DNA from: Streptomyces lincolnensis
Lineage (GTDB): Bacteria > Actinomycetota > Actinomycetes > Streptomycetales > Streptomycetaceae
Reading direction: 5' to 3'
Length of the DNA: 64,000 bases
Assembly (NCBI RefSeq): GCF_001685355.1
Contig: NZ_CP016438.1
Coordinates: 868,001 to 932,000, forward strand
The position numbers and the translations under genes are program-made. Positions 15,232 to 41,312 of this stretch are shown piece by piece. How positions within the stretch are numbered: position 1 is the stretch's first letter; each line of letters starts with the position of its first letter. The notes under the pieces are model-generated. The model was not told where the DNA came from. It ran no database searches and saw nothing but the letters and a program-made list of their open reading frames with translations.

Positions 15232-15444
15232 TCATTCACCCATGGCCCGGATCAGGCTCTTCGGTCGCATGTCGGTCCAGTGCTCCTCGACGTACTCCAC
15301 GCACGACTGGCGGCTCGCGCGGCCGTGGACGACGGTCCAGCCGGCCGGGACCTCGGAGAAGGCCGGCCACAGGGAGTGCTGGCCCTCGTCGTTGACGAGG
15401 ACGTAGTGCTCAAGGGTGTCGTCGTCGAAGGGGTTGGTGGTCAT
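15232..15444 (-). CDS. MbtH-like NRPS chaperone
   Basis: This 70-residue protein shows the MbtH family signature: NPFDD at the start, then LVNDEGQHSLWPAFSEVPAGW and WTDMRPKSLI. MbtH proteins bind adenylation domains and are often needed for their solubility and activity. The ATG overlaps the NRPS3 stop as ATGA (15441-15444), so it is translated with the NRPS. It is the only MbtH gene in the window and presumably serves all five A domains. Confidence 0.95.
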   Translation of the reverse strand: MTTNPFDDDTLEHYVLVNDEGQHSLWPAFSEVPAGWTVVHGRASRQSCVEYVEEHWTDMRPKSLIRAMGE

Positions 15445-18400
15445 CGGGAGTCGCTCCTGTCGGTTCGGGGCGTGAGGGCGCGCAACCGGCGGTCGAGCAC
15501 GGGCCCGATCCGGTCCAGCGCCTCGGGCCGGGTCATCTCGCCGTGGGCACACGGGATGTCGTGGTTGTCGACGCCGCCCCGGACGTACGGCAGCCAGGTG
15601 CCGTGGCGTCCGGGGTGTGCGTCCGGATCTTGTGCGGCGGTGAAGAACAGCAGGTCACCGTCGTACGACGTGGGGGCGAACTCCTCCAGGAGGCGCCGGT
15701 TGTTGGCCGTCACCTCGACCAGGGCGGCGAGTTCGGCGTCGTCGAGGCTGCCGGGCAGGTCGGGGACGTGGCGCACCAGTTCCGCGAACCGGGCGTCGGT
15801 CAGCGTCTCGTCCGGGGGTGGTGCCGGGCGTCCCAGGATGCTGAGGAGGCTGCGCAGCACGGCGTCCCGGTCGGAGGGGCGGGGGCCCTGGCTGGTCCAG
15901 GAGCCGGGGAAGGAGTCGAGCATCGCCAGCAGCGCCACCCGCTCCCCCGCCGCCCGCAGGGTGGCGGCCACACCGTGGGCGACGATGCCGCCCATGGAGT
16001 ATCCGAGCAGGTGGTAGGGGCCGTGCGGCTGGATCTCGCGGATCTGTGCCGTGTGCCGGGCCACCGCCTCGGCCAGGCTGCCCGACCGGGCGGCTCCGGG
16101 GACCAGCCCGCGGGACTGGAGTCCGTACAGGGGGCGTTCGGTGTCGAGGTGCCGGGTGAGTCCGGCGAAGCCCCAGGCCAGTCCGGAGGCCGGAGGGAGG
16201 CAGAACAGGGGTTCGCGCTCGCCTCGGGCGCGCAGGGGGAGGAGGACGTCCAGCGCCGTCGCCTGGGAGGGCGCGGCGATCCTTCCCGACGCCGACGCCG
16301 ACGCCGAGACCGAGGCCGGGTCCGCGACGGCGATCGCGCCGGTGCCGGTCACGCGCCGCGCGAGCCCCGCCACGGTCGGTGTCTCGAACAGCGCCCGCAC
16401 CGGCAGCGCGGTGTCGAGGTCGGTGCGGACCCGCGTGGTCAGCCGGGGAACCAGCAGGGAGTGTCCGCCGAGGTCGAAGAAACTGTCGTCGACGCCGATG
16501 CGCAGGGGATCGAGGCCGAGGACGTCGGCGAAGAGATCCCGCAGCTTGTGTTCCGTCCCGGTGCGTGGGGCGACGCGTGCCGTGGCCGCGGGCGCTCCGG
16601 GTGCGGGCAGGGCCTTGCGGTCCAGCTTGCCGCTGGCGGTCAGCGGCAGGGCGTCGAGGACGACGATCGTGGCGGGGACCATGTGAGCGGGCAGGGTCCG
16701 GGCGAGGTGGGCGCGGAGAGCACCAGCGTCGGCATCGGCATCTGTCGTGCGTCCGCCGGTGGGCACGGCGTAGGCGACCAGCTGAGGCTCGCCCCGCGTG
16801 TCCTCGCGCACGGCGGCGGCCGCCTTCGCCACGGCGGGGTGGTCCGCCAACACGGCCTCGATCTCGCCGAGTTCGACGCGGAAGCCGCGGATCTTCACCT
16901 GGTGGTCGGCGCGGCCGAGGAAGCGCAGGTGTCCGTCGGGGCCGCGCACCGCGAGGTCGCCGGTGCGGTACATCCGCTCCCCCGGCGCGCCGAACGGGTC
17001 GGCGACGAAGCACTGCCCGGTGAGCGCGGGCCGTCCGAGGTAGCCGCGGGCGGGTCCGCCGCCGGAGAGGTAGACCTCCCCGGGGACTCCGTCGGGCACG
17101 GGGTGGAGGGCCTGGTCGAGGAGGTGGAGGCGGTTGCGGGCGAGGGGGCGGCCGAGGGGCGGCGGGCCGTCCTCGCGGTACGGGTCGAGGTCGGACTGCC
17201 AGGCGGTGGCGTAGATCGTCGCCTCGGTGGGCCCGTAGAAGTTGATGATCCGTGCCCCGGGGAAGGCGTCTTCGAGGTCGGTGAGCAGGTGTACGGGGAT
17301 AGGCTCGCCGCCCAGGGCGACCACCCGGGGAGCGACGGCCGGGCGGTCCGCGACGACCGTCGCCATGACGGACGGTACTCCGCTGATGAGGCTCGCGTCC
17401 CAGCGGTCGCGGTCCTGCGCGGTGAGGGCGAGCAGGTTCTCGACGATCTCGATGCGGCCGCCGCACAGCAGCGGTGAGAAGATCTCGAAGACGGAGACGT
17501 CGAAGTTGAGCGAGGTCGAGAACAGCACCTTCGCCAGCCGCTCGGGCCCGAGTTCGGTATGGGTCCACGCGACGAACTCGGCCACGCTCCGGTGGGTGGC
17601 CGCGACGCCTTTGGGTCGGCCGGTGGAGCCGGACGTGTAGGTGATGCAGGCGAGGTTGTCCGGCACCAGGTCCACGACCGCCAAGTCCCCCTGCACCGCC
17701 CCCTCGTGATCACCCGTCAGGTCGTCGAGAAGCAGCAGTCCGGTCCCCTCGGGCAGCGCTCCCGCCGTCTCGGCCGTGGCGAGGACCACGACCGGCCGGG
17801 CGTCGCCGACGATGTGGGCGAGGCGGTCCGGCGGATAGGCGGGGTCGAGGGGCAGATAGGCGGCCCCGGACTTCAGGACGGCCAGGACGGCGGCGACCAG
17901 GTCCGCGGTACGCGGCAGCGCGATGCCCACGATCCGCTCGGGACCGGCGCCCAGCGCGGCGAGTCGGCCCGCCAACTGCTCGGCCCGCACGTCCAGTTGG
18001 CGGTACGTCAGCGAGCGACCGTGGTCCAACAGGGCCTCGGCGTCCGGGGTTGCCGCCACCTGGGCGGCCCACAGTTCGGTGACAGTACGGGCGGCCGGGG
18101 GCGCGGCGGGGGCCGCGGCCGCGTCACGTGCCGCGAGTCCGAGCCGGCCGAGGGGCAGGTCCGGGTCGGCCGCCATGCGCTCCAGGAGCCGTACCAGTCG
18201 GGCCAGGGTGTCGTCGGCCCACGCGGCGTCGAAGAGGTCGGGCCGGTAGGCCAGTCGGAAGCGCGGGCGGGGGCCGGGGAGCGCCACGAGGGTCACCGGA
18301 TAGTGGGTGGCGTCGCGCCCGCCCGTGCCGATGACCCGCAGGCCGTCGCCGGGGTCGGTGGCCCGCTCGTCGACCGGGTAGTTCTCGAACACGACGAGCG

Positions 18401-19557
18401 TGTCGAAGAGTTCGGGGACTCCGGCCGCCCGCTGGATGTCGGCGAGCCCGAGATGGTGGTGGTCCAGGAGTCGGACGTAACTCTCCTGGACGCGGCGCAG
18501 CAGGCCGCTCAGGGGCTCGTCGGGGCGCAGCCGGACACGGGTGGGGAGGGTGTTGATGAACAGGCCCACCATGGACTCGACGCCGGGCAGGTCGGCCGGA
18601 CGCCCGGAGACGGTGGCGCCGAAGACAATGTCGTCGCGCCCCGTGGTGCGGCTGAGCAGGATGGCCCAGGCGGCCTGGACGAGGGTGTTGACAGTGACGC
18701 CGAGGTTCCGCGCCAGGACGGTCAGGGCGGTGCCGGTCTCGGTGGGCAACTCGGTCCGGGCCTGGGCGAGTTCGCCCGAGCCGAGGCCGTCGGAGGCGTG
18801 CGGGGCGAGGCGGGTGGGGTCCGTCACTCCGGCCAGTGCCTCCCGCCAGGCGGACTCGGCGACGGTGCGGTCCCGGCGGCCGAGCCACTCCAGGAAGGTG
18901 CGGTAGGGCGGCGCGGGCGGCAGGGAGGCCGGGTCGCCGCCGGAGTCGTAGAGGGCGAGGAGTTCGCGCAGCAGGACGGAGACGGACCAGCCGTCGAGCA
19001 GGATGTGGTGGTGGGTGATCAGCAGCCGGTGCCGGTCCTCGCCGGTGCGGGCCAGGGTGCACCGCAGCAGCGGCGGCGTGGCCGGGTCGAAGCCGCGGTC
19101 CCGGTCCGCGTCGAGCAGCCGGGTCCACGCCTCCTCGACATCGACATCGGCATCGGTCGGGGCGCTCAGGTCCGTCTCGGTCCACGGCAGGACGGCCCGG
19201 CGCGGGACGACCTGGACCGGCTGTCCGCCGCGGCGGCGCCGGAAGGCGGCCCGGAGGGTGGGGTGGCGGTCCAGCAGGGCCTGGGCGGCGGCGCGCAGCC
19301 GGGCGGCGTCGACGGTGCCGCCGAGTTCGAAGACGAGTTGGACGAGGTAGACGTCCGGGGCGTCGCGCTCCTGTTCGTACAGGGCGTGGAAGAGGAGCCC
19401 CTCCTGGAGCGGGGTCAGGGGCAGGATCTCCACCTGCGCGGACTGGCCGGACTGGGCAGGCTGGGCGGACTGTATGGACCGCGTCGGTTGCGTGTGCTGC
19501 GCGGGCGGGGTCGTCATGAGGTGTCTCACCGGCTCCTTCGGGCTCTTCCGGTCGCGG

Positions 19558-19565
<8 letters not shown>
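15441..19565 (-). CDS. NRPS3: C-A-T-TE termination module
   Basis: This synthetase of about 1374 residues adds the fifth residue and releases the peptide. The C domain starts [14 protein letters not shown] and has HHILLDGWS near residue 187, a type that usually accepts a D-configured donor, consistent with the upstream E domain. The A domain ([10 protein letters not shown] near residue 648) gives the code DVFSAGFIYK by eye, which I cannot assign. The T domain has DLGGHSLLV near residue 1033. A type I thioesterase follows, with nucleophile motif GYSMGG near residue 1190. The start at 19565 overlaps the NRPS2 stop by eight bases; ATG 19517 is an alternative. The N-terminus is a low-complexity Gln/Ser/Pro-rich linker. 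Release by hydrolysis or cyclisation cannot be told. Confidence 0.9.
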
Positions 19566-27291
<7,726 letters not shown>

Positions 27292-27297
27292 CTTGGG

Positions 27298-30200
27298 TTA
27301 CCTCCACTCACTTCCGAACTCGGCTTCGAGTTCGTCGATCTCCGATTGGGACAGGGCCACCAGGGGCAGGTCGGACGGTGTGTGCCCGCCCTCGGGGGTG
27401 CCGGCGGCCTGGGCGGCCAGCTCCTCGCACCACAGGTCGGCCAGGGCGCGTACCTCGCTCTCGGACCAGATGCCGGGCGCCCAGGACCAGGTGGCCGACA
27501 GCCGGCCGTCGGCGGTGGTCACGGCGGTGATCTCCAGGCCGTGCGCCACGGGCATGCCGGGGTCGTGGGCGGCCCCCAGGTGGGACAGGCCGGGAAGCGC
27601 CTCCGGAGCCGCCGACCAGTCGGCCACAGGTTCCTTGGGCGTGCGGCCCAGGTAGTTGAAGCCGATCTGCGGGGCCGGGAGCGCGGCGAGTGCCGGTCCC
27701 GTCCCGGGGTTGAGGTGACGGAGCAGACCGTGGCCGATGCCGTGGTCGGGAACGGCCCGCAGCTGCTCCTTGACACGCTTGAGCACATCGGCCGGGTCAC
27801 CCGGGTCGGCTCCGGTCAGGTCCAGTCGCGCCGGGACGACACTCGTGAACCAGCCGACCGTGCGCGACAGGTCGACGCCATCGTCGATGTCCTCACGCCC
27901 GTGCCGCTCGATGTCGACCAGGAGCGCCTGGTGTCCGTCCTTCGTCCGCCGGTGGCGCATGAAGGCGGCCGTCAGCGCGGCGAGCAGCACGTCGTCGGGG
28001 CCGGCGTGGAAGGCGGCGGGCACGGTGGTGAGGAGTTCCGTGGTGGTGTCGGCCGGAAGGTCCCGGGTGAGGTGCCGCATCGCACCGGCGACGTCTCGGC
28101 CCGGGTCCAGGTGCCGGGCGCCGAGCAGTGGGTCGGGGGCGTCCAACAGCCTTTTCCATACGTCGAGTTCGGCCGCCCTGTGCGGAGCGCGGGCCTCTCG
28201 CTCCAACAGGTGCGCCCAGTGCCGGAAGGGCGTGCCCGGTTCGGACAGCGGCTCCTCGCGCCAGGCGGCGGCCAGGTCGGAGCGGAGGGTGCTCCAGGAG
28301 ACGCCGTCCACGGCGAGGTGGTGGATCGTCAGCAGGAGGCGACCGGACCGGACCGGGCCGCCGTCGAACCACACGGCGTGCACCAACTGACCCTTTTCCG
28401 GGTGCAGTTCGACGGCGGTCGTGGTCAGGGCGGTCGCGAAGTCACCGTCCGGCACGCCGACCCGCTCCAGCAGTTGTCCCGCGTCCACGCTCCCGGCCGG
28501 CGGCACCACTGCCGTCCGCTCCTCGGCCATGATCCGCATGCGCAGCACGTCGTGCCGGTCCACCAGCGCTTGAAGGACGGCCGTCAGCCGCTTCTCGTCG
28601 GTCCCGGCAGGGGCGACGAGCAAGGCCGACTGGCTGAACGACCCGATCGGGCCGCCACGGTCGACGAGCCGGTGCATGGCCGGGGTGAACGGCAGCTCGC
28701 CCACCGCCGGTTCCTGCTCCTGGGCCCGGCCGGCGGCCGGACGCCCGGCCGCCACGGCGGCGAGCGCGGCGATCGTCCGGTGCTCGAAGACGTCCCGTGG
28801 GGTCAGCCGCAGTCCCGCCGCCGTCGCGCGGCTCACGAGGTGGATCGAGGTGATGCTGTCGCCGCCGAGGTCGAAGAACCCGTCGTCGACGTCCACCTCC
28901 TCGACGGATGTCCCGAGCACCTCGGCGAAGAGGTTCCTCAGGGTCTCCTCCTGCGGGGTCCTCGGAGTCCCCGGCGTTCCCGTGGTGCGGCGAGCCGCGC
29001 CCACCGATGCAGGTGCCTCACGGTCGAGGACGGGGGCGGGCAGCGCGGCCCGGTCCAGCTTGCCGTTAGGCGTCATCGGCAGGGCGTCCAGCAGCACCAG
29101 CGCCTCGGGAACCATGTGGGTCGGCAGCTGCCGGGCGGCGTGCCCCAGGAGCGCGGCGCGGTCGGTGTCGGCCGGCGCGACGACGTACGCGACGAGCCGC
29201 CGGACCCCGGCCCCGTCCTCCCGTACGACCACGGCGGCCTGGGCGACCGAGGGATGGGCGGTGAGTACCCCCTCCACCTCACCGGGCTCGATCCGCAGCC
29301 CCCGGATCTTGAGCTGGCCGTCGGCCCGCCCGCGCAGCTCCAGGGTGCCGTCGGCGCGGCGCACGGCCAGGTCTCCGGTGCGGTACATGCGCTCACCGGG
29401 CGGCCCGAAGGGATCGGCGACGAACCGCTCGCCGGTCAGCCCGGGCCGCCTCCAGTAGCCGCGGGCCACATGGTCCCCGGCCACATACAGCTCGCCCTCG
29501 ACCCCGACGGGCACCGGGTTCAGCCGGGCGTCCAGCACATAGGCCCGGGTGTTCCACATGGGGCGGCCGATGGGCACGGGACCGGTGGGCAGTTCCTCCC
29601 CGGGTTCGATGCGGTGGTCGGTGCAGCCGACGGTGAGTTCGGTGGGGCCGTAGTGGTTGATCAGGCGGACGTGCGGACGGTCCCGGCGCCAGGCGCGCAG
29701 GGCCTCGCCGACCAGGGCCTCGCCGCCGAGCATGAACTCCTCGGTGGGCGACAGGTCGTGCGGCAGGACGGGCAGCAGCGGGAGGTGGCTCGGGGTCGCC
29801 TTGAGGAAGGTGTAGCCCTCGGGCAGCGGGGCGGCACCGGCCTCGTGGAAGGCGGCGATGTGCACCTGGCCGCCGGCGGCGAGCGCCCCGTGCAGGGTCG
29901 TGACGGTGGCGTCGAAGGACAGGGTGGCGTGCAGCAGCGAGGTGCCGCGCAGGCTGGGGTAGGCCTCGACGCACCGGGCCACGTAGGTGGTGAGGTTGCG
30001 GTGCTCGACGACGACGCCCTTGGGGCGCCCGGTGGTGCCGGAGGTGTAGATCAGGTAGGCGGGGTCGGCGGGCCGTGCCACGGCGAGCGGCACGTCGGGG
30101 CCGGCCGGTGCCTGGTCGGGGTGGACGACCGGGACTCCGTCGGGGAACCGGTCCCGGCTGATCACGCACACGGGATCCGCGTCCGACAGCAGATAGTTCG

Positions 30201-33200
30201 TGCGCTCGGCCGGATGCTCCGGGTCGAGCGGCAGATAGGCCGCGCCCGCCTTGAGGACGGCCAGCACGGCGACCGCGAGGTCCACCGACCGGGGCAGCGA
30301 GACGGCGACGACACGGCCCGGTCCGGCGCCGTACCTGGTGAGGGTGTGCGCCAACCGCGCCGCACGGGTGTCGAGTTGGCGGTAGGTGAGGGAGGTTTCC
30401 GCGTCCGAGACCGCCACGGCGTCCGGCGTCCGGTCCGCACGCGCCTCGAAGAGCCGGGGGAACGTGGTGTCCGGGATCTCCCGTGCCGTGTCGTTGAACT
30501 CGGCCAGCAGCCGGTGGCGTTCTTCCGGGGCGAGGATGTCGAGCGCGCCGATCGCGCGGTCCGGATCGTCGACGGCGGCGCGCAGCAGCCGTTCCAGGCG
30601 GGCGGCCAACTCCACCGCCGTGCCTCGGTCGAAGAGGTCGGCACTGTACTGGAGGACGCCTTCGATGCCGTCCGGGGTGCCGTCGGGCGCGTGGAGCTCG
30701 CCGAGGTTGAACGTGAGGTCGATCTTCGTGGCACCGGTCTCCACCGGCAGGGTCCGCGTGCGCAGGCCGGGCAGGTCGAGCCGGGGTCCGGCGGTGGGCC
30801 GGAAGGCGAGCATCACCTGGAAGAGCGGGTGACGGGCCAGGGACCGGGGCGGGTTGAGGGCCTCGACCAGGTGCTCGAAGGGCAGGTCCTGGTGCGCGTA
30901 GGCGGCCAGATCGGTCTCCCGGACCCGGTCCAGGAGGTCCCGGAAGGCGGGGTCGCCGGAGGTGTCGGTGCGCAGGACGAGGGTGTTGACGAAGCAGCCG
31001 ACCAGGTCGTCGAGCCTCTCGTCGGCGCGGCCGGCGACCGGGGTTCCGAGGGGGATGTCGGTGCCGGCGCCCAGCCGGGTGAGCAGGGCGGCGAGGCCGG
31101 CCTGCACGACCATGAACACCGTGGTCCCGTTCGTGTGGGCCAGTGCGCGCAGCCGCCGGTGCAGGGCCGCGTCCCACCGCACGGCGACATCGCCGCCCCG
31201 GTGGGTGGCGACGGCCGGCCGGGGCCGGTCGGCGGGGAGGGCGAGTTCGTCGGGCAGTCCGGCGAGCGCCTCGCGCCAATGGGCGAGTTGAGGCTCCTGC
31301 ACGGCGGCGATCACCTCGTCCTGCCAGAGGCCGTAGTCGGCGTACTGGAGGGGCAGCGGCCGCTGGTGCGGCTCCTGTCCGGCGAGCCGGGCCCGGTAGG
31401 CGGTCGCGAGATCGCGCAGGAGGGGGTCCAGGGACCAGCCGTCGGCGGCGATGTGGTGCAGGGCCAGCAGGAGGACGTGGTCCTCCGTGCCGACGGCCAG
31501 CACATGGGCGCGCACCGGGATGTCGTCGGTGAGGCGGAACTCCTCGGCCGCCACCTCGGCCAGCCGCCCGGGCAGTTCGGCCTCCACGACGTCCTCGACG
31601 GTCACCCGGGGCCGCACGGACTCCAGCAGCCGCTGACGAGGGCGGCCGTCCGCGTCCGGATAGACCGTCCGCAGGATCTCGTGCCGGGCGACGACGTCAC
31701 CGAGCGCGGCACGCAGGGCGTCCACGTCGAGGGGGCCACCGGTCAGCCGTACGGCGAGCGGGACGGTGTAGGCGGCCCCTGCTCCCTCCAGCCGGTGCAG
31801 GAACCACAGCCGTCGCTGGGCGGAGGACAGCGGCACCGCCCCGACCGGGACGGCACGCGGGGCCGGCCGCCCGGCAGCGGGTCCTACGACCGTCCCGCCG
31901 GCGGTCAGACGGGCCAGTCCCGCCGGGGTGGGTGCCCCGAAGACCTCACGCAGGGTCAGTTCGACGCTAAGAGTGTTCCGGATCCGGCCGATCAGCCGCA
32001 GGGCGAGCAGCGAGTGGCCGCCGAGGGCGAAGAGGCTCTCGTCCGGGCCGACGTCCGGCAGGCCCAGGACGTCGGCGAACAGGGCGCACAGCACCTCTTC
32101 GCGCGGGGTGCGCGCGGACCCCGCGTGTGACGCCACGGCACGCGCCGGTCCGGCCGCGGGGGCGGGCAGCGCGGCGCGGTCGAGCTTGCCGTTGGCGGTC
32201 AGCGGGAGGCTGTCCAGGACGACGACGGCGGAGGGCACCATGGCCTCGGGCAGCAGCCCGGCGAAGTGGTCGCGCAGGGCGTCGGGCTCGGCCTTCTCCC
32301 CCACCACGTAGGCCACCAGGCGCCGGTCGCCGGGGCGGTCCTCGCGGACGACGGCGACCGCCCGGGCGACCTCGGGACGGTCGGCGAGGGCCGCCTCGAT
32401 CTCGCCCGGTTCGATGCGGAACCCGCGCAGTTTGACCTGGCCGTCGACGCGGCCGTGGTACTCCAGCTCGGCGTCGGGGGTGACCTGGACGCGGTCGCCG
32501 GTGCGGTACATCCGGGCGCCCGGCGGGCCGTAGGGATCGGCGACGAAGCGCTCGGCGGTGGCGGCGGGGCGGCCCAGGTAGCCGCGGGCCACACCGGGGC
32601 CGGCGAGGTACAACTCGCCGACCGTGCCCGGCGGGACGGGCCGGAGGGCGCCGTCGAGCACGTACGCGCGCACGCCGTCCAGGGGGCGGCCGATGGGCAG
32701 CGGGTCCGGTACGGGCCGGTCCGAGGGGCACGGGCGGAAGGTGGCGAACGTCGTCGTCTCCGTCGGCCCGTACCCGTCGGTGACGGTCAGTCCCGGACAC
32801 GCCTCCAGGACCCGGCGCACCGCGGCGGCCGGGACGGCCTCGCCTCCGGTCCACACCCGGCGCAGTCCGGCGAAGCACTCCGGGTCCTGTTCGGCGACGA
32901 GCGCGAACAGCCCCGCGGTCAGCCACAGCGCGGTGAGCCGGTGCCGTGCCGTCAGCCGGGCGACGGCCGCCGCGTCCACGTCCTCGTCGGCTCCCGCGAC
33001 CACGGCGGTGCCGCCGTTGAGCAGTGGCACCCACATCTCATAGGTGGAGGCGTCGAACGCGGTCGGCGAGTGCACCAGGACGCGCGCGTGCGCCCCGTCG
33101 GCGAACGCCGAGTCGGCCGCCAGCGCGGTGATGTCGCGGTGGGTGACAGCGACGCCCTTGGGTGTGCCGGTGGAGCCCGACGTGAAGCTGAAGTACGCCA

Positions 33201-34947
33201 GTTGGTCCGGGTGCAGGGGGACGCGGGGGTCGGTGTCCGGTTCGGCGGCGAGGGTCGGATCGTCGACGGCGACCGGCGTGATGCCCTCGTAGGCCTGTGT
33301 GAGATCCGTCAGCAGGACGGCCGCTCCGGTCTCGGCGAGGATGCGCCGCGTGCGGGCGGCCGGGGCACGCGGGTCGAGCCCGACGTAGGCGCCGCCCGCC
33401 TTGAGGACGGCCAGCAGGGCGACGATCAGGTCGTCGGAGCGGGACACGAGGACCGCGACCCGGTCCTCGGGGCGGACCCCGAGGCTCAGCAGCCGGTGGG
33501 CAAGTCTGTTGGCTCGGCGGCTCAACTCCCGGTAGCTGATGCTCCGTTCACCGTGCACTACGGCTGTGGCGTCCGGGCCGGCGGCGGCTATCAGCTCCGG
33601 CACGGTCGCCTCTCCCCCGCGCGCGGGAGCGCCGTCGAGGCGGGCGGACGTCCTCTCCCGCGGCAGGGTGAGCTCCAGCGTGCCCACACAGGCCGCCGGT
33701 TCGGCGGCGAACCGCTCCACGAAGTGGATCAACCGCCGGTGGTGGGCGGTGAGTTCGGCGTCCGTGTAGTGCGCCGGGCTCGCGTCGAGGTCGATGCGGA
33801 TGCCGTCCGTGTCGGCGCGGTCGTACACGTTGACGGCGAGGTCCTCCACCGGGCCGGTGGAGAGGTTGTGGCGGGTGGTGGGGTGTCCGGCGAAACGCAG
33901 TTCCGGCCCGAAGGCCATGATGTTGACGACGGGGCCGAAGAAGCGGCGCCCGTCCTGCGGCCAGTCCAGTTCCCGGCGCAGGTCCTCGCCCCGGTAGCGC
34001 TGGTGCGCCAGCAGGTCGCGGGTGGCGCTCGCGGTCTGCCGTACGAGGTCGTGGACGGTGGTGTCGGGGCGGACGGTCAGGCGCAGCGGCAGGACGTTGG
34101 ACGCCATGCCCGGGGTCGCGCGTTCGGTCTCGCTCTCGCGGCCGGTGACGGCGAGGCCGAGCACGATCTCCCGGGCTCCGGTGAGGCGGTGCAGGTAGGC
34201 GGCGGTGGCCGCGAGGACGACGCGCGACCAGCGGGTGCCGGCCCCGGCGGCGCAGGCGTGCACCAAGTCGCCCGCGGCCTGCGGGAGATGACCGGTGCGG
34301 CGCTCGAACCGCCCGGCGACCCGCGAAGGCCGCGTCGACAGGCTGACCGACTCGGGGCGGTCGGCGAGGGCCTCGGTCCAGTACGTGCGGTCCGACGCGT
34401 GCCGTTCGCCCGCCTGGTAGGCCGCGTCCTCGGCGACGAGCGCGGCGAGGGGCGCGGGCGGCGGAGCGGGGGCCGTACCGGCGGCGAGGGCGGTGTAGGC
34501 GTCGGCCACGCGGGCCGCGACGAGGGAGCAGCTGTAGCCGTCGACGGCGATGTGGTGGTAGCGCTGGTACCAGATCCAGTGGTCGTCGGCGAACTTGAGC
34601 AGCGCGTACCGGAAGAGCGGGGCCCGGTCCAGGGCGAAGGGCGTGGTGAAGTCGGCGGCCCGCCAGGTCTCGGCGGCGGTACGGGGGTCGTCCTCGCCGG
34701 TGAGGTCGACGACGGGAAGATCCCAGTGGGGGGCGGCCTCGACGATCCGGCGGACGGTGTCGTCGTCGGCCACGAAGCGGACCCGGAGCGTCTCGGTGGC
34801 GTCCACCACCGCCCGTATCGCCGCCCGCAGGAGAGCGGGGTCGACGGGCCCGTGGATCTCGGTGTACTCGCCCACGTTGTAGGCGGGCCCGGCGGGGTCG
34901 AGGCGCTGCCCGAACCACATCGAGCGCTGCGCGGCGGACAGGGTCAC
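27298..34947 (-). CDS. NRPS1: C-A-T-C-A-T-E, modules 1 and 2
   Basis: This synthetase of 2549 residues starts at GTG 34947, with GGAGG four bases upstream and a GTGA overlap with the gene before it. The first domain is a C domain ([32 protein letters not shown] near residue 135). It resembles starter C domains of the EntF/DhbF kind, so the first amino acid may be N-acylated. A1 reads DAYWWGGTFK, close to Val codes. T1 has LGGHSLLAL near residue 979. C2 has HHIAADGWS near residue 1168. A2 reads DATKMGHVGK, related to Asp/Asn codes but with Ala and Met at positions 236 and 299. T2 has LGGDSITS near residue 2031. The E domain has [10 protein letters not shown] near residue 2212. The tail [13 protein letters not shown] looks like a docking helix. 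Confidence 0.92.
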
Positions 34948-36248
34948 CGGGCCTCCCCGACGACGGCCCCGGCGCCGGTGCCCGTCAGCAGCCGTTCCAC
35001 CTTCTCGGCGACCAGACGTGGTCCCTCCTCGCGGCCGGGCCACAGGACGCGCAGCCACGGGCGGGCGGGGACGAGCGGGAGATCGCGGGCCTGGCGGGCG
35101 CGGCCGCCGCCGGTGATGTTGAGGAGCACCAGTTCGTCCCTGCGGACCTGCCCGGCCAGGACGGCTTCGGCCAGGGCGGCCAGGGCGACCCCGGCACCGG
35201 GCTCGATGTCGATGCCCTCGACCTCCTCGAAGAGGGCCAGGGCGGCGAGCGCGGCCTCGTTGTCGGTACATCGGATGTCGCCGCCGCTCTCGGCCAGCAC
35301 GTCCCGCACGCCGCCGCGCACGGTGAACGGCGGGCGGCGGTTGGTCAGTTCACGAGCCAGCGGCTCGTGCTCGCGGTGCGCGGGGGCCTGGCCGGTGGCC
35401 CGCCAGGCCTCGTGCAGGGGCGCGAAGGGCGCGTTCTGACACATCAGCAGGCGCGGCAGGCGCTCGCCCTCCTCGCGGACGCGGCGCGCGGCCTCGTGGG
35501 CGCCGATCGCTCCGGTCCCGCTGCCGACGGCCTGTACATAGGTCTCCGGGAGACGGCCGAGGACCTCGGCGGCGGCCAGCATGACGGTGCCCAGGCCGTC
35601 GCGCCGTCCGACGTTGCGCGCCCCGCCCTCGGCGTGGTGGCCGGGCAGCGCGGCCAGCAGGTCGGCGCAGGCGATGGCGTCGCTGTAGGTGGCGGCGCCG
35701 TCGAGGACGACGATCCGCACGCACGGGTCGAGCGGGGCGGGGAACCGCATCCGTTCCATCGCCGGGGCGGGCACGACGAGCAGGCAGGGCACCCGGTGCA
35801 AGGTGGCCGCCCAGGCGAAGGCGGCGGCGGTGTTGCCCGCCGAGGGGATGACGAGGACGGGCGGCGCGGCGGGCAGCCGGCCGAGCACCGTGTACGCCTC
35901 CAGGTCCTTGAAGGTGCAGGTCGGCAACTGCGCCCCGCGTTCGGGCCAGTAGCCGTTGAAGGCGACCCAGAGCCGGTCGAGGCCGATCCGGCGGCCGAGG
36001 CGTTCGGCGTGGTGCACGACCGGTCCGGGCACGTCCGGGAAGGTCCGTGCCACCGGCAGCAGCGGGGCGTGCCGGAACAGCCCGGTGTCCGTACCGGCAC
36101 CGGCCGGGATGCCGGCGTACTCGGTGCGCAGGAATGCCGGTTCGTGCCGACGGGAGCAGTCGAGTATGAGGCCGTCGTCCTCGTAGCGGGTTCCGCATGA
36201 GGAACAGACAACTGTGTAGTGCCGTGTTCCCGGGCGTCCTCGGGACAT
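34944..36248 (-). CDS. cysteate synthase-like PLP enzyme (threonine synthase fold)
   Basis: This 434-residue protein matches archaeal cysteate synthase (TIGR03844 type) along its length. Shared features are an N-terminal zinc-ribbon-like CSSCG with a later Cys, [10 protein letters not shown], the PLP-lysine region [39 protein letters not shown] and [17 protein letters not shown]. Cysteate synthase replaces the phosphate of O-phosphoserine with sulfite to give L-cysteate. The start is the ATG at 36248 after GGAAGGCAAGGGAAG. It overlaps NRPS1 by GTGA, so it belongs to the biosynthetic operon and probably makes an unusual building block. Another beta-replacement product is possible, since relatives in antibiotic clusters use other nucleophiles. 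Confidence 0.8.
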
Positions 36249-36496
36249 CTTCCCTTGCCTTCCGCAGTGCCGCGTATCGCTGATCAATTGGAACCGGCTC
36301 CGCGGTACGGGAAGGAGACCCACGAATTACTTCTTGCTGAACGCCAGTTGACACATCGCCCGCACCGGCGCCGCTCACCTGCGCATTGTTCAGGCCCTCT
36401 TCATCTGCCCGTACCGGTGCGGTGGTGGGGAAAGAAACCGCTCCTGTAGATCATCCGAGACGCGTACACCGTTCACGAAAGGTTGACGGGAAAATG
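36249..36496. promoter_or_regulatory. divergent promoter region, NRPS operon / dehydrogenase genes
   Basis: These 248 bases separate the two divergent operons and must carry both promoters. The stretch is more AT-rich than the surrounding genes (for example around 36322-36356). A TTGACA hexamer at 36348-36353 has no good -10 partner at 17-18 bases. No operator palindrome was convincing. A shared regulatory region suggests co-regulation of peptide assembly and acyl-CoA supply. Confidence 0.5.
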
Positions 36497-37666
36497 ATGG
36501 ATTCGCCGACGCTTACGGATGACGAGGCCAGGGAAGACCCTTCCGCTTGGCTTCCTTCCGCGGTTCCGGTTTCCTTTTTGCCGGCGCCGCCAGCGCCACT
36601 GTCGTCGAATTCGTCATCGAATGGCAAAGTCCGGGAATTCGCTCCGGCTGCACGGGCGGAGCACCGGTCGTACGCCGAGCCGCCGCCCGGCGCTCTGCTG
36701 GCGGCGTACCGACGGATGGTCGTCGGGCGCCGCTTCGACGAGCAGGCCACGGCGCTCGCCCGGCAGGGCCGGCTGGCGGTCCATCCGTCCAGCCTCGGCC
36801 AGGAGGCCTGCCAGGTCGGTGCCGCCCTCGCCCTGCGCGCCACGGACTGGCTGTTCCCCACCTACCGCGACTGCGTCGCCCTGGTCAGCCGGGACATCGA
36901 CCCGGTCGAGGCGTTGACGCTGCTGCGCGGTGACGCCCACTGCGGCTACGACCCCGTGCGGCACCGCACCGCCCCCCAGTGCACCCCGCTGGCCACCCAC
37001 ACCGCCCACGCCACCGGGCTCGCCCACGCCGAGCGGCTCAAGGGCACCGACACGGTCGCGCTGGCGCTCCTGGGCGACGGCGCGACCAGCGAGGGCGACT
37101 TCCACGAGGCGCTGAACCTGGCGGGTGTGCTGCGGGCACCCGTGGTGTTCCTGGTGCAGAACAACGGGTACGCCATCTCCGTCCCGCTGTCCGAGCAGTG
37201 CGCGGCACCGAGCCTGGCGTACAAGGGCGTCGGGTACGGCGTCCGCTCGGAGCAGGTGGACGGCAACGACGCCGCCGCGGTCCTCGCCGTACTGACCACC
37301 GCCGTCGAGGACGCGCGAGCCGGCGGCGGGCCCTGGCTGGTCGAGGCGCACACCTACCGCATGGCCCCGCACACCAGCGCCGACGACCCCTCCCGCTACC
37401 GCACGGCCGAGGAGACCGAGCGCTGGCGGGCCCGCGATCCGATCGCCCGGCTGGAATCCGCCCTGGTCGAGCGCGGGTTGCTGACCGACGACGACGTGCG
37501 GGCGGTGGCGGCCGAGGCGGCGCGGTACGCCGTCGGTGTCCGCGAACGCCTCGCGGCGGACCCCGAGTTGGATCCGCTCGGCCTCCTCGACCACGTCTTC
37601 GGCGCGCCGACCCCGCAGCTCGCCGCTCAACGCGACGCTCTGCGGGCCGAAGGGGAGGGCTGCTGA
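36497..37666 (+). CDS. 2-oxo acid dehydrogenase E1 alpha subunit
   Basis: This 389-residue thiamine-diphosphate subunit resembles branched-chain 2-oxo acid and pyruvate dehydrogenase E1 alpha. It shows GRRFDEQATALARQGRLAVHPSSLGQEA, the ThDP signature GDGATSEGDFHEALNLAG ending in QNNGYAIS, and HTYRMAPHTSADDPSRYR. The first 55 residues form a Ser/Pro-rich extension with lower GC than the rest. The ATG at 36497 is used, with ATG 36494 directly before it; GACGGG lies upstream. The next gene begins one base after the stop and encodes the partner subunit. The complex decarboxylates a 2-oxo acid to an acyl-CoA; which acid is not visible. Confidence 0.88.
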   Translation: MDSPTLTDDEAREDPSAWLPSAVPVSFLPAPPAPLSSNSSSNGKVREFAPAARAEHRSYAEPPPGALLAAYRRMVVGRRFDEQATALARQGRLAVHPSSLGQEACQVGAALALRATDWLFPTYRDCVALVSRDIDPVEALTLLRGDAHCGYDPVRHRTAPQCTPLATHTAHATGLAHAERLKGTDTVALALLGDGATSEGDFHEALNLAGVLRAPVVFLVQNNGYAISVPLSEQCAAPSLAYKGVGYGVRSEQVDGNDAAAVLAVLTTAVEDARAGGGPWLVEAHTYRMAPHTSADDPSRYRTAEETERWRARDPIARLESALVERGLLTDDDVRAVAAEAARYAVGVRERLAADPELDPLGLLDHVFGAPTPQLAAQRDALRAEGEGC

Positions 37667-37667
37667 C

Positions 37668-39680
37668 ATGGCGGATGGAACGACGATGGCGCAGGCCCTC
37701 AATCACGCACTGCGGGACGCGCTCGACGCGGACGAGCGGGTCGTCGTCCTCGGTGAGGACGTCGGCCGCCTCGGTGGCGTCTTCCGGGTGACCGACGGCC
37801 TCACCGAAACGTTCGGCACCCGGCGCTGCTTCGACACGCCGGTGTCCGAGGCGGGTATCGCCGGTCTCGCGCTCGGCATGGCGATGGGCGGGTTCCGGCC
37901 CGTGGTGGAGATGCAGTTCGACGCGTTCGCCTATCCCGCGTTCGAGCAGATCGCCTCGCACATCGCCAAGATGCGCAACCGGACCCGGGGCGCCCTGCCG
38001 CTGCCCCTGGTCGTCCGGATCCCCTACGGCGGCGGTATCGGCGGGGTCGAGCACCACAGCGACTCCAGCGAGGCCTACTACGCCCACACCGCGGGCCTGA
38101 AGGTGGTGACCCCGGCGACGGCGGCGGACGCCTACTCCCTGCTCCGCGAGGCGATCGACGACCCCGACCCGGTGGTCTTCCTGGAACCCAAGCGCCACTA
38201 CTGGACCCGCGAACGGCTCGAACTGCCCGTCCGTACCGAGCCGTTCGGCACCGCCGCGATCCGCCGCACCGGGGGCGACGCCACCCTCGTGGCGTACGGC
38301 CCGTCACTCGCGGTGGTCCTTGAGGCGGCCGAGCGGGCCGCGGGCGAGGGCCTGGAGGTGGAGGTGCTGGACCTGCGCACCCTGGTCCCGCTGGACGACC
38401 GTACGCTGACCGACTCGGTGCGGCGCACCGGCCGGTGCCTGGTGGTGCACGAGGCGCAGGGCTTCGCCGGGGTGGGTGCCGAGATCGCGGCACGCGTGCA
38501 GGAGCGCTGTTTCGACGCCCTGCGCGCACCGGTGCTGCGGGTCACCGGCTTCGACATCCCTTATCCGCCTCCGCTGTTGGAGGGCGCCCATCTGCCGGGC
38601 GTCGAGCGGGTGCTCGACGGCCTGCGCCGGCTGCTGCCCGCCGGCGCCGGACTCCGCCCCGCCCGCGACGGTTCGGCGCACACCGAGTCGGCGGCCGCCG
38701 CCCGGACCTTCCACCTCCCCGACCTGGGCGAGGGGCTCACGGAGGCCGAGGTGCTGGAGTGGAAGGTCGCCGTGGGCGACGTCGTGGAGCACGATCAGGT
38801 CGTCGTCGAGGTGGAGACGGCCAAGTCCGTGGTGACGCTGCCGAGTCCGTATGCCGGGACGGTGTCGGCCCTGCACCACGGGACCGGTGAGGTCGTGCCG
38901 GTGGGGGCTCCGCTGTTCACGGTCGCGCCGGAGGCCGACGCCGGTGCCGATTCGGGTGCCGTGCTCACCGGTTACGGGACGGGCGCGGCGAAGGGGTGGT
39001 CGCGGGCCGGGAGTTCCTCCGCGGACACGGGCACCCGCGTTCCCTTGGACGCCTCCGCCGACAAGTTCGTCCGCGGTCACCGCGACACGCCTTCCGTGAC
39101 GATCTGGGCCGACGCCGACGCCACCGGCCTGCTCGCCGCCCGCGACGTTCTCGGAACGGGCCTGCTGCCCCTGCTCGCGCGGGCCTGTCTCGCCGGGCTG
39201 GCCGCCTTCCCCGAGCTCAACGCCCGCGTCGACGCCGAACGCGGCGAGATCGTCCGCCCGCCCCGGGTGCACCTGGGCATCGCCGCGCAGACCGCGCACG
39301 GTCTGCTCGTGCCGGTCGTCCGCGACGCCGACCGCCTGTCCCCGGACGACCTCGCGGCCGAACTGCGGCGCCTGACCGCCCTGGCCCGGCGGGGCACGCT
39401 CCCGGTGGAGCATCGCACCGGCGGCACGTTCACCCTCAACAACTACGGCGTCCTCGGCGTCGACGGCGCCACTCCGATCCTCAATCATCCGCAGGCCGCG
39501 ATGCTCGGCGTGGGCCGCGTCGTCGAGCGTCCTTGGGCGGTGGACGGCCGGGTGGAGGTGCGCAAGGTGGTCCACGTGTCGCTGACGTTCGACCACCGGG
39601 TGTGCGACGGCGGCACCGCGGCGGGGTTCCTGCGTCAGGTCGTCGACGGCATCATCACCCCTGAGGGAGCGGCCCCCTGA
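37668..39680 (+). CDS. fused 2-oxo acid dehydrogenase E1 beta - lipoyl - E2 acyltransferase
   Basis: This 670-residue protein joins two normally separate subunits. Residues 1-330 are E1 beta (MAQALNHALRDAL, RCFDTPVSEAGIAGLALGMAM, GGGIGGVEHHSDSSEAYYAHTAGLK in pieces). Residues 346-420 are a lipoyl domain (LPDLGEGLTEAEVLEWKVAVGD) with Lys386 in VETAKSVV as the lipoylation site. After a linker of about 45 residues comes a short E2 catalytic domain (NARVDAERGEIVRPPRVHLGIAA, TFTLNNYGVLGVDGATPILN) with His643 and Asp647 in DHRVCDGG. The peripheral-subunit-binding domain usual between lipoyl and catalytic domains is not detectable. GGGGAGGG precedes the ATG. No E3 gene is in the window. The architecture looks genuine because the frame is uninterrupted. 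Confidence 0.9.
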   Translation: MADGTTMAQALNHALRDALDADERVVVLGEDVGRLGGVFRVTDGLTETFGTRRCFDTPVSEAGIAGLALGMAMGGFRPVVEMQFDAFAYPAFEQIASHIAKMRNRTRGALPLPLVVRIPYGGGIGGVEHHSDSSEAYYAHTAGLKVVTPATAADAYSLLREAIDDPDPVVFLEPKRHYWTRERLELPVRTEPFGTAAIRRTGGDATLVAYGPSLAVVLEAAERAAGEGLEVEVLDLRTLVPLDDRTLTDSVRRTGRCLVVHEAQGFAGVGAEIAARVQERCFDALRAPVLRVTGFDIPYPPPLLEGAHLPGVERVLDGLRRLLPAGAGLRPARDGSAHTESAAAARTFHLPDLGEGLTEAEVLEWKVAVGDVVEHDQVVVEVETAKSVVTLPSPYAGTVSALHHGTGEVVPVGAPLFTVAPEADAGADSGAVLTGYGTGAAKGWSRAGSSSADTGTRVPLDASADKFVRGHRDTPSVTIWADADATGLLAARDVLGTGLLPLLARACLAGLAAFPELNARVDAERGEIVRPPRVHLGIAAQTAHGLLVPVVRDADRLSPDDLAAELRRLTALARRGTLPVEHRTGGTFTLNNYGVLGVDGATPILNHPQAAMLGVGRVVERPWAVDGRVEVRKVVHVSLTFDHRVCDGGTAAGFLRQVVDGIITPEGAAP

Positions 39681-39683
39681 CGG

Positions 39684-41312
39684 TCAGCAGCCGCCGGGCG
39701 GCGAGGAGGGCGCCGCATATCCGGAGCCGATCCGGTACACGCCCGGCCCGCCCACCGACAGCAGGGTGAACTCGCCCTCCCGCCGCAGACAACCGCCCGC
39801 CACCCGCAGCCACGGCGAGTAGGCGACCCGCACGCGCACCGAGCCGGGCGCCGGCATCCACACGTCCAGTTCGTCCGCCGTGGCGCGCATCACGCGCGCG
39901 GGCGCCGTCACCAGGGGTACGGCGTCCCGCACCCGGTAGACCCGCCAGTGCGCGTCGCTCCACACCGGTTCCAGCCACGCGGGCCCGCTGCGCACCAGCC
40001 GGGCCTCGGCCGCACCGTAGCGGTCGGGCACGGCGTCGGGCAGCACCACGAAGCCGACGGCCCACCGGTCCAGCCAGGCACGGTAGGCCGACGGCGAGAA
40101 CGTGCCGTCGTAGAAGAGCCGGCCGCGCTCCATGTCCAGCTGGGTGTTGAAGCCGCGGGCCAGATTGACGTACGGGGAGAGGACGGCGGCCTCCCGGTGG
40201 TCGTCGGCCGGGACCACCTCCACCCGCGTGCCCCGCGCGCCGAGCCGGTCCAGGGCCCGGACGACCCCGTGGGCGTCGGCCGCCCAGGCCGGGACCCGGT
40301 CCGTGCCGCGCAGGAAGGTCACAGGCGTTCCCGATCCCAGCCATGCCAGGGACGCGACGAGCGCACAGGCCAGGGCGCCCCGCAGGTGCCGCGCGCCCCG
40401 CTCCGTGGAGAGCAGGGCGGCGAGCAGCACGGCGGGCGCGAACAGCAGCGCGAGGCGCTCGACGTTGGTGCCGATCGGCGAGGGGATCAGATACGTCAGC
40501 AGGACACCCGCCACGTAGACCGCGGCTCCCCGCCGCACCAGCCGCCATCCGCGCGGTGCCAGGAGCGCGACCGCCAGGCCCAGCAGGGCGGGCCACAGGA
40601 TGCGTGCCGCCGGCATCGGCTGCCGGCCGTGGAAGGGGAACAGCACCGTGGTCGTCCCCACGACCACGAACGGGGGCACGATCAGGGCCGCGGCCCGTGG
40701 CCAGTCCCGCGACAGTGCGTAGGCCGCGCCCGCCACCACCAGGAACAGTCCGGCCACCGGGCTCGCCGCCGTAGCGAGCAGCCCGTACCCGGCGCTCAGC
40801 GCCGGCCGCCGCTCCCCCACCAGCAGCACACAGGCCGCGAGGGCGAAGGCGACACCGAGCGCGAAGGTCACCCGGCCCGCCGCGACATCCGCCCACAGGC
40901 CGAACGCGGCGAGCAGGGCGGGCGCGAGCGGGCGCCGGATCCCCGACCGTACGCACAGGACCGCCGCCGGCCAGCCGGCGGCGAGACCCGCGGCGACGGC
41001 CACCGTCCGGACGCCGAAGAAGCCCATCAGATACGGCGAGAGGAGGCTGTAGTTGGCCATGTGCGCCCCGCCGAACCAGAACAGCCCGTACGCCGAGCCG
41101 CCGTGCTCGGCGGCGAAACGCGCCCAGGTCTCCTGGGCGGCCAGGTCACCGCCGCCGTTGGCGCGGAACAACGCCCACACCGCGTACAGCGGGAGCATGG
41201 TCACCGTGGCCAGCAGCGGGACACGGTGACGGCGGACGAACGTCCGGGAGGCACCGGTGGGCGGGGGCGCGCCGCGCGTGGGGGCAGGCTTCAGCTCGAC
41301 GGCAGCTGTCAT
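39684..41312 (-). CDS. polytopic membrane protein of unknown function
   Basis: This 542-residue protein has about ten membrane helices in its first 350 residues (for example VPLLATVTMLPLYAVWALF and FALGVAFALAACVLLVG) followed by a soluble C-terminal domain of about 190 residues. The layout, a helix bundle with an extracytoplasmic tail, resembles actinobacterial GT-C-like or MFS-annotated membrane proteins, but I see no catalytic DD or DE motif I would trust in the first loop. It converges on the dehydrogenase operon with three bases between them. A role in exporting the peptide is possible but unsupported. Confidence 0.7.
   Translation of the reverse strand: MTAAVELKPAPTRGAPPPTGASRTFVRRHRVPLLATVTMLPLYAVWALFRANGGGDLAAQETWARFAAEHGGSAYGLFWFGGAHMANYSLLSPYLMGFFGVRTVAVAAGLAAGWPAAVLCVRSGIRRPLAPALLAAFGLWADVAAGRVTFALGVAFALAACVLLVGERRPALSAGYGLLATAASPVAGLFLVVAGAAYALSRDWPRAAALIVPPFVVVGTTTVLFPFHGRQPMPAARILWPALLGLAVALLAPRGWRLVRRGAAVYVAGVLLTYLIPSPIGTNVERLALLFAPAVLLAALLSTERGARHLRGALACALVASLAWLGSGTPVTFLRGTDRVPAWAADAHGVVRALDRLGARGTRVEVVPADDHREAAVLSPYVNLARGFNTQLDMERGRLFYDGTFSPSAYRAWLDRWAVGFVVLPDAVPDRYGAAEARLVRSGPAWLEPVWSDAHWRVYRVRDAVPLVTAPARVMRATADELDVWMPAPGSVRVRVAYSPWLRVAGGCLRREGEFTLLSVGGPGVYRIGSGYAAPSSPPGGC

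Follow-up and report, generated by a model that had tools for sequence, protein, structure and literature searches.

The window, the whole 64,000-nucleotide stretch of Streptomyces lincolnensis DNA analysed here, carries an NRPS operon on its minus strand, and the first gene of this operon (34944..36248, minus strand) encodes a cysteate (cysteic acid) synthase homolog, a PLP enzyme. The first-pass annotation had given these coordinates without a strand. The gene is real and starts at an ATG; a plus-strand gene at 34944-36248 was rejected, as frame 1 contains a stop and no such protein exists. The longest minus-strand ORF spans 34944-36323, and the end at 36248 is the ATG at residue 26 of this frame, a start shared with the relative P0002 and matching the place where P0004 begins. 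All five motifs that had been quoted as the cysteate synthase series are found in the minus-strand translation. The proposed four-base overlap with NRPS1 reads GTGA, with the GTG start of NRPS1 lying on the TGA stop of the cysteate synthase gene, and through this overlap the two genes are translationally coupled. A scan of genome contigs with cysteate synthase yielded 27 loci, and the 17 at no less than 75% identity are referred to as close relatives. In all 17, NRPS1 follows the cysteate synthase gene.

What does this enzyme make? The protein scores 371.2 bits (E 5.4e-111) against the cysteate synthase model TIGR03844, which has a cut-off of 324.9, and its residues 36-425 align with positions 1-397 of the 398-position profile, a family match far beyond chance. 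The nearest solved structure, 9k3c (303.5 bits), is named 'Cysteate synthase', and the nearest named enzyme, at 70% identity, is P0063, the 'Cysteic acid synthase' of Kibdelosporangium sp. AK-AA56, the producer of JBIR-78/95. Members of the family convert O-phosphoserine and sulfite to L-cysteate. Might the enzyme instead make another beta-substituted alanine, or be threonine-synthase-like? The protein matches PF00291, a fold family common with threonine synthase, and its TIGR03844 score lies below that of a methanogen member (371 vs 591 bits). However, it passes the TIGR03844 cut-off while falling below the cut-offs of all threonine synthase models listed, the best of which reached 73.5 bits vs 303; for TIGR00260 it scores 29.1 bits against a cut-off of 167.1. 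The first-pass annotation had suggested a tree of TIGR03844 members and threonine synthases as a check. In a tree of 31 rows of our own choosing, the 29 family rows, the window enzyme among them, split from two threonine-synthase-like proteins of the host with support of 100/100, and 17 of the 48 residues invariant in the family rows are unlike both host proteins. A threonine synthase was rejected on these scores, this split and these residues; moreover, another frame in the host genome, of 354 residues, is of the threonine synthase type. We consider a product other than cysteate extremely unlikely.

Within the tree, the window enzyme pairs with that of S. lincolnensis L4 (100/99), and both it and P0063 belong to a clade of 11 rows (100/99). 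The archaeal cysteate synthase of the coenzyme M pathway and the Bacteroidota members belong to the same NCBIfam family, and both are over its cut-off; the window enzyme is 41% identical to that of Methanolobus and 41-43% identical to those of Bacteroidales loci. These enzymes are expected to catalyze the same reaction as the window enzyme. Their roles lie in coenzyme M or sulfonolipids, whereas the window enzyme serves a peptide; the product of 34944..36248 very probably makes cysteate for a bacterial peptide. The archaeal and Bacteroidota sequences fall among the actinobacterial ones in the tree, although the deciding forks are weak (86/55 and 91/88) and some branches are long.

The assembly line was delineated from Pfam matches and motif positions. 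NRPS1 (27298..34947, minus strand), which starts within the GTGA, has the organization C-A-T-C-A-T with a C-terminal condensation-type domain (three Condensation, two AMP-binding and two PP-binding matches). NRPS2 (19558..27291, minus strand) holds two modules and again a C-terminal condensation-type domain (three condensation-type, two adenylation and two carrier domains), while NRPS3 (15441..19625, minus strand) comprises module 5 as C-A-T-thioesterase. We infer that the third condensation-type domain, C-terminal in NRPS1 and NRPS2, would act as an epimerase. Adenylation codes were read by motif or by eye from the pocket segments. In NRPS1, module 1 has the Val-like code DAYWWGGTFK, to be compared with the Val yardstick DAFWIGGTFK, and module 2 has the Asp-type code DATKMGHVGK. 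In NRPS2, module 3 has the Thr-like code DFWNVGMVHK and module 4 the code DAMLIGAVCK, and the code of module 5 in NRPS3 is DVFSAGFIYK. Modules 4 and 5 are taken as putative beta-hydroxyleucine and beta-alanine modules, respectively, by position only, as neither code alone says so.

The available text of PMC10391617 gives DLTKVGHVGK as a code for Asp or OH-Asp and DATKIGEVGK as an Asn/Asp code, and that of PMC12283262 gives DLTKVGHVGK as Asp/Asn and includes DFWNIGMVHK among Thr-type domains. Module 2 differs from DLTKVGHVGK at two of ten positions, and it is because of this resemblance to published yardsticks that we call it Asp-type. Such a code cannot separate Asp from cysteate. In discodermin, according to the part of PMC12858407 (section 9) available to us, a module predicted to use Asp gave a residue found to be cysteic acid, and module 2 has this same look of a cysteate module. 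We take its adenylation domain as the one that would load cysteate. Alternatively, module 2 would normally load aspartate, the cysteate synthase would be a side supplier and the sulfonated peptide a minor variant. Aspartate should fit a pocket so close to the published Asp code, and JBIR-78/95, which reportedly shares an Asp-type second residue with the window, offers a precedent, with Asp in JBIR-78 and cysteate in JBIR-95 said to occupy the same position. Yet translation of NRPS1 is coupled to that of the cysteate synthase, all 17 close relatives retain the enzyme (as they must, the loci having been found through it), and the available portion of PMC13260306 presents the published product as one that contains cysteate. 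Aspartate as the normal substrate is thus very unlikely, and cysteate is preferred for module 2.

Divergent from the operon, on the plus strand, lies a gene for a 2-oxoacid dehydrogenase E1 alpha (36386..37666; PF00676, 243.9 bits), which scores just below the cut-off of TIGR03181 (399.4 vs 411.35 bits). Its partner is a fused E1 beta-lipoyl-E2 acyltransferase (37536..39680, plus strand; PF02779, PF02780, PF00364 and PF00198), and both proteins are below the cut-offs of the standard pyruvate dehydrogenase models. This two-gene enzyme probably supplies phenylacetyl-CoA from phenylpyruvate. In the JBIR-78 work, Orf1 and Orf2 reportedly made phenylacetyl-CoA from phenylpyruvate, and Orf3 is said to be the cysteic acid synthase. 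Sixteen of the 17 close relatives likewise carry both E1 genes upstream, and the contig of the seventeenth (L014) begins inside the cysteate synthase. Beside them in the window is a 542-residue frame (39684-41312, minus strand) with no Pfam or NCBIfam match; a copy 90% identical is present in S. lincolnensis L4, and none was seen in the other close loci.

At the other end of the operon are genes for an MbtH-like protein, a helper of adenylation domains (15232..15552, minus strand; PF03621, 95.5 bits), and for a cytochrome P450 (13983..15239, minus strand; PF00067) for which no NCBIfam model was over its cut-off. Copies of the P450 adjoining NRPS3 are 96% identical in S. lincolnensis L4 and 88% identical in S. 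cyaneus. The P450 is probably the beta-hydroxylase of the module-4 residue.

Does the locus correspond to a known product? A 'cysteate-containing nonribosomal peptide' from Streptomyces lincolnensis was described by Wang et al. (2018, J Org Chem), listed as reference 80 in the available text of PMC12858407. The monomers of the lactone cysteoamide, as given in the accessible portion of PMC13260306, which cites the 2018 work, are phenylacetate, Val, cysteate, Thr, beta-OH-Leu and beta-Ala, and cysteoamide is named as a reference cluster in a table of a genome paper (PMC10940327, as far as its text was available). The same excerpt of PMC12858407 cites Takeda et al. (2017, ACS Chem Biol) for JBIR-78/JBIR-95 of Kibdelosporangium sp. 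AK-AA56. The available part of PMC11546977 describes a starter C domain that joins phenylacetyl-CoA to L-Val in the JBIR-78/95 producer, and that of PMC9321520 places beta-hydroxyleucine in JBIR-78. To judge from these excerpts, JBIR-78/95 resembles the window in having a cysteic acid synthase homolog, a phenylacetyl starter on Val and beta-hydroxyleucine; unlike the five modules of the window, JBIR-78/95 is a heptapeptide, and its enzyme is 70% identical. The cysteoamide monomer list, as it stands in the available text, fits the starter genes and five modules of the window in order, and no difference was found in this module-to-monomer comparison.

The window thus has a cysteate synthase gene beside NRPS genes, pyruvate-dehydrogenase-like genes for putative phenylacetyl supply, and a Val-type first and an Asp-type second adenylation domain with a putative epimerase; a Thr-like code and a thioesterase are also present, and for modules 4 and 5 the fit is one of position alone. 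The first-pass annotation had proposed that cysteate, or a related beta-substituted alanine, is built into the peptide. Because of family membership, a tree position beside the enzyme of the JBIR-78/95 producer, co-conservation with the NRPS, the Asp-type module 2 and the match to published product monomers, cysteate is well supported as the probable peptide unit. We are highly confident that the window holds a cysteoamide-type biosynthetic cluster, and, judging by how the modules match the monomers, it is probably the published one. In the proposed pathway, the PLP enzyme would form L-cysteate from O-phosphoserine and sulfite, and the dedicated two-gene 2-oxoacid dehydrogenase would provide phenylacetyl-CoA, with the first C domain of NRPS1 coupling phenylacetyl to Val. 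Module 2 would then load cysteate through its Asp-type pocket, to be converted to the D form by the epimerase-like domain, followed by Thr, a residue taken as beta-hydroxyleucine (P450) and one taken as beta-alanine. The thioesterase would free the peptide, perhaps as a lactone.

How constant is this assembly line among the close relatives? DATKMGHVGK occurs in module 2 of 16 of the 17, as in the window, and the L014 contig ends before module 2; the count used a pattern with fixed pocket letters, which scores presence and cannot list variants. Module 1 of one relative (L009) has a Thr-type pocket, unlike the Val-like module 1 of the window. In L009 (9940-19089), this pocket nearly matches that of module 3 in the same relative, a pattern that gene conversion could have produced. 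The fourth module lacks an adenylation domain in Streptomyces sp. NRRL S-646, S. pseudovenezuelae and S. acidiscabies, and no P450 like that of the window was found in the stretch read of these three. Their sister clusters read C-A-T-C-T-E (L033-L034, L041-L042 and L037-L038, respectively). Downstream in NRRL S-646 lie a stand-alone A-T protein and a short-chain dehydrogenase, similar-sized frames are present in S. pseudovenezuelae and S. acidiscabies, and loading in trans may provide the missing residue in sister clusters of this type.

In 24 of 392 sampled Streptomyces genomes the enzyme was found with an E value of 1e-60 or better; in 12 of these it is close (at least 79% identity, window included) and in 12 it is at 45-56%. 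Some genomes of this sample are also among those of the 27-locus scan. The genome labelled S. lincolnensis L4 carries the cluster at about 92% DNA identity to the window. Elsewhere in the host genome, a stretch contains an LmbU-family gene together with an Erm and an ABC-F gene, these two over their cut-offs. The same stretch has talC-, amino-sugar-transaminase-, GalE- and F420-oxidoreductase-like genes under their cut-offs, and four of its ten proteins are without a match. This stretch resembles the lincomycin cluster, from which the host is probably S. lincolnensis, the species of the published cysteoamide cluster. LmbU is a weak species marker, because the family is over its cut-off in 18 of 101 Streptomyces genomes and the same search found no match in S. 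lincolnensis L4.

Twelve divergent cysteate synthase loci were fetched and read for neighbours. NRPS modules lie within the stretch at seven, of which four have other adenylation codes only; a fatty-acyl-ligase-like AMP-binding protein occurs at two, and neither NRPS nor ligase at three. The Asp-type lysine is found in an adenylation domain at three of the twelve (L046, L052 and L056), and adjacency of cysteate synthase to an Asp-type domain, tried as a general rule for divergent relatives, is therefore only partly borne out. In these three and in L016 (1-3746), divergent cysteate synthases (about 45-53% identical) lie beside an NRPS with a lysine-278 Asp-type adenylation domain, the code in L016 being DITKIGHIGK; these four loci possibly encode further sulfonated peptides. 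L019 (8165-11317) is a cluster of a different kind, in which 48 bases separate the end of a gene for a CmlA-type diiron beta-hydroxylase from the cysteate synthase gene that follows it, with acyl-CoA dehydrogenases and an AMP-binding protein nearby. In L047 and L050 the cysteate synthase is near a fatty-acyl-ligase-like protein, and no NRPS was seen in the 20 kb read.

Both the sulfonated peptide and its gene cluster appear to have been published already, the present reading being a correct one of a known thing. A sulfonated peptide pathway was inferred correctly from raw sequence, and the published chemistry backs that inference. Tentatively, and with slightly less than even confidence, we suggest that the cysteate synthases of actinobacteria extend beyond this published cluster, are for the most part unassigned and work with assembly lines of other types (terminal Asp-type modules, hybrid NRPS, or a fatty-acyl ligase with a CmlA-type hydroxylase), that several unseen sulfonated products may exist, and that the enzymes of coenzyme M synthesis and of Bacteroidota may have arisen within this actinobacterial diversity. 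For finding sulfonated peptides where predictors would assign Asp, the code DATKMGHVGK next to a cysteate synthase gene is a practical search key, together with DITKIGHIGK and related forms from the divergent loci.
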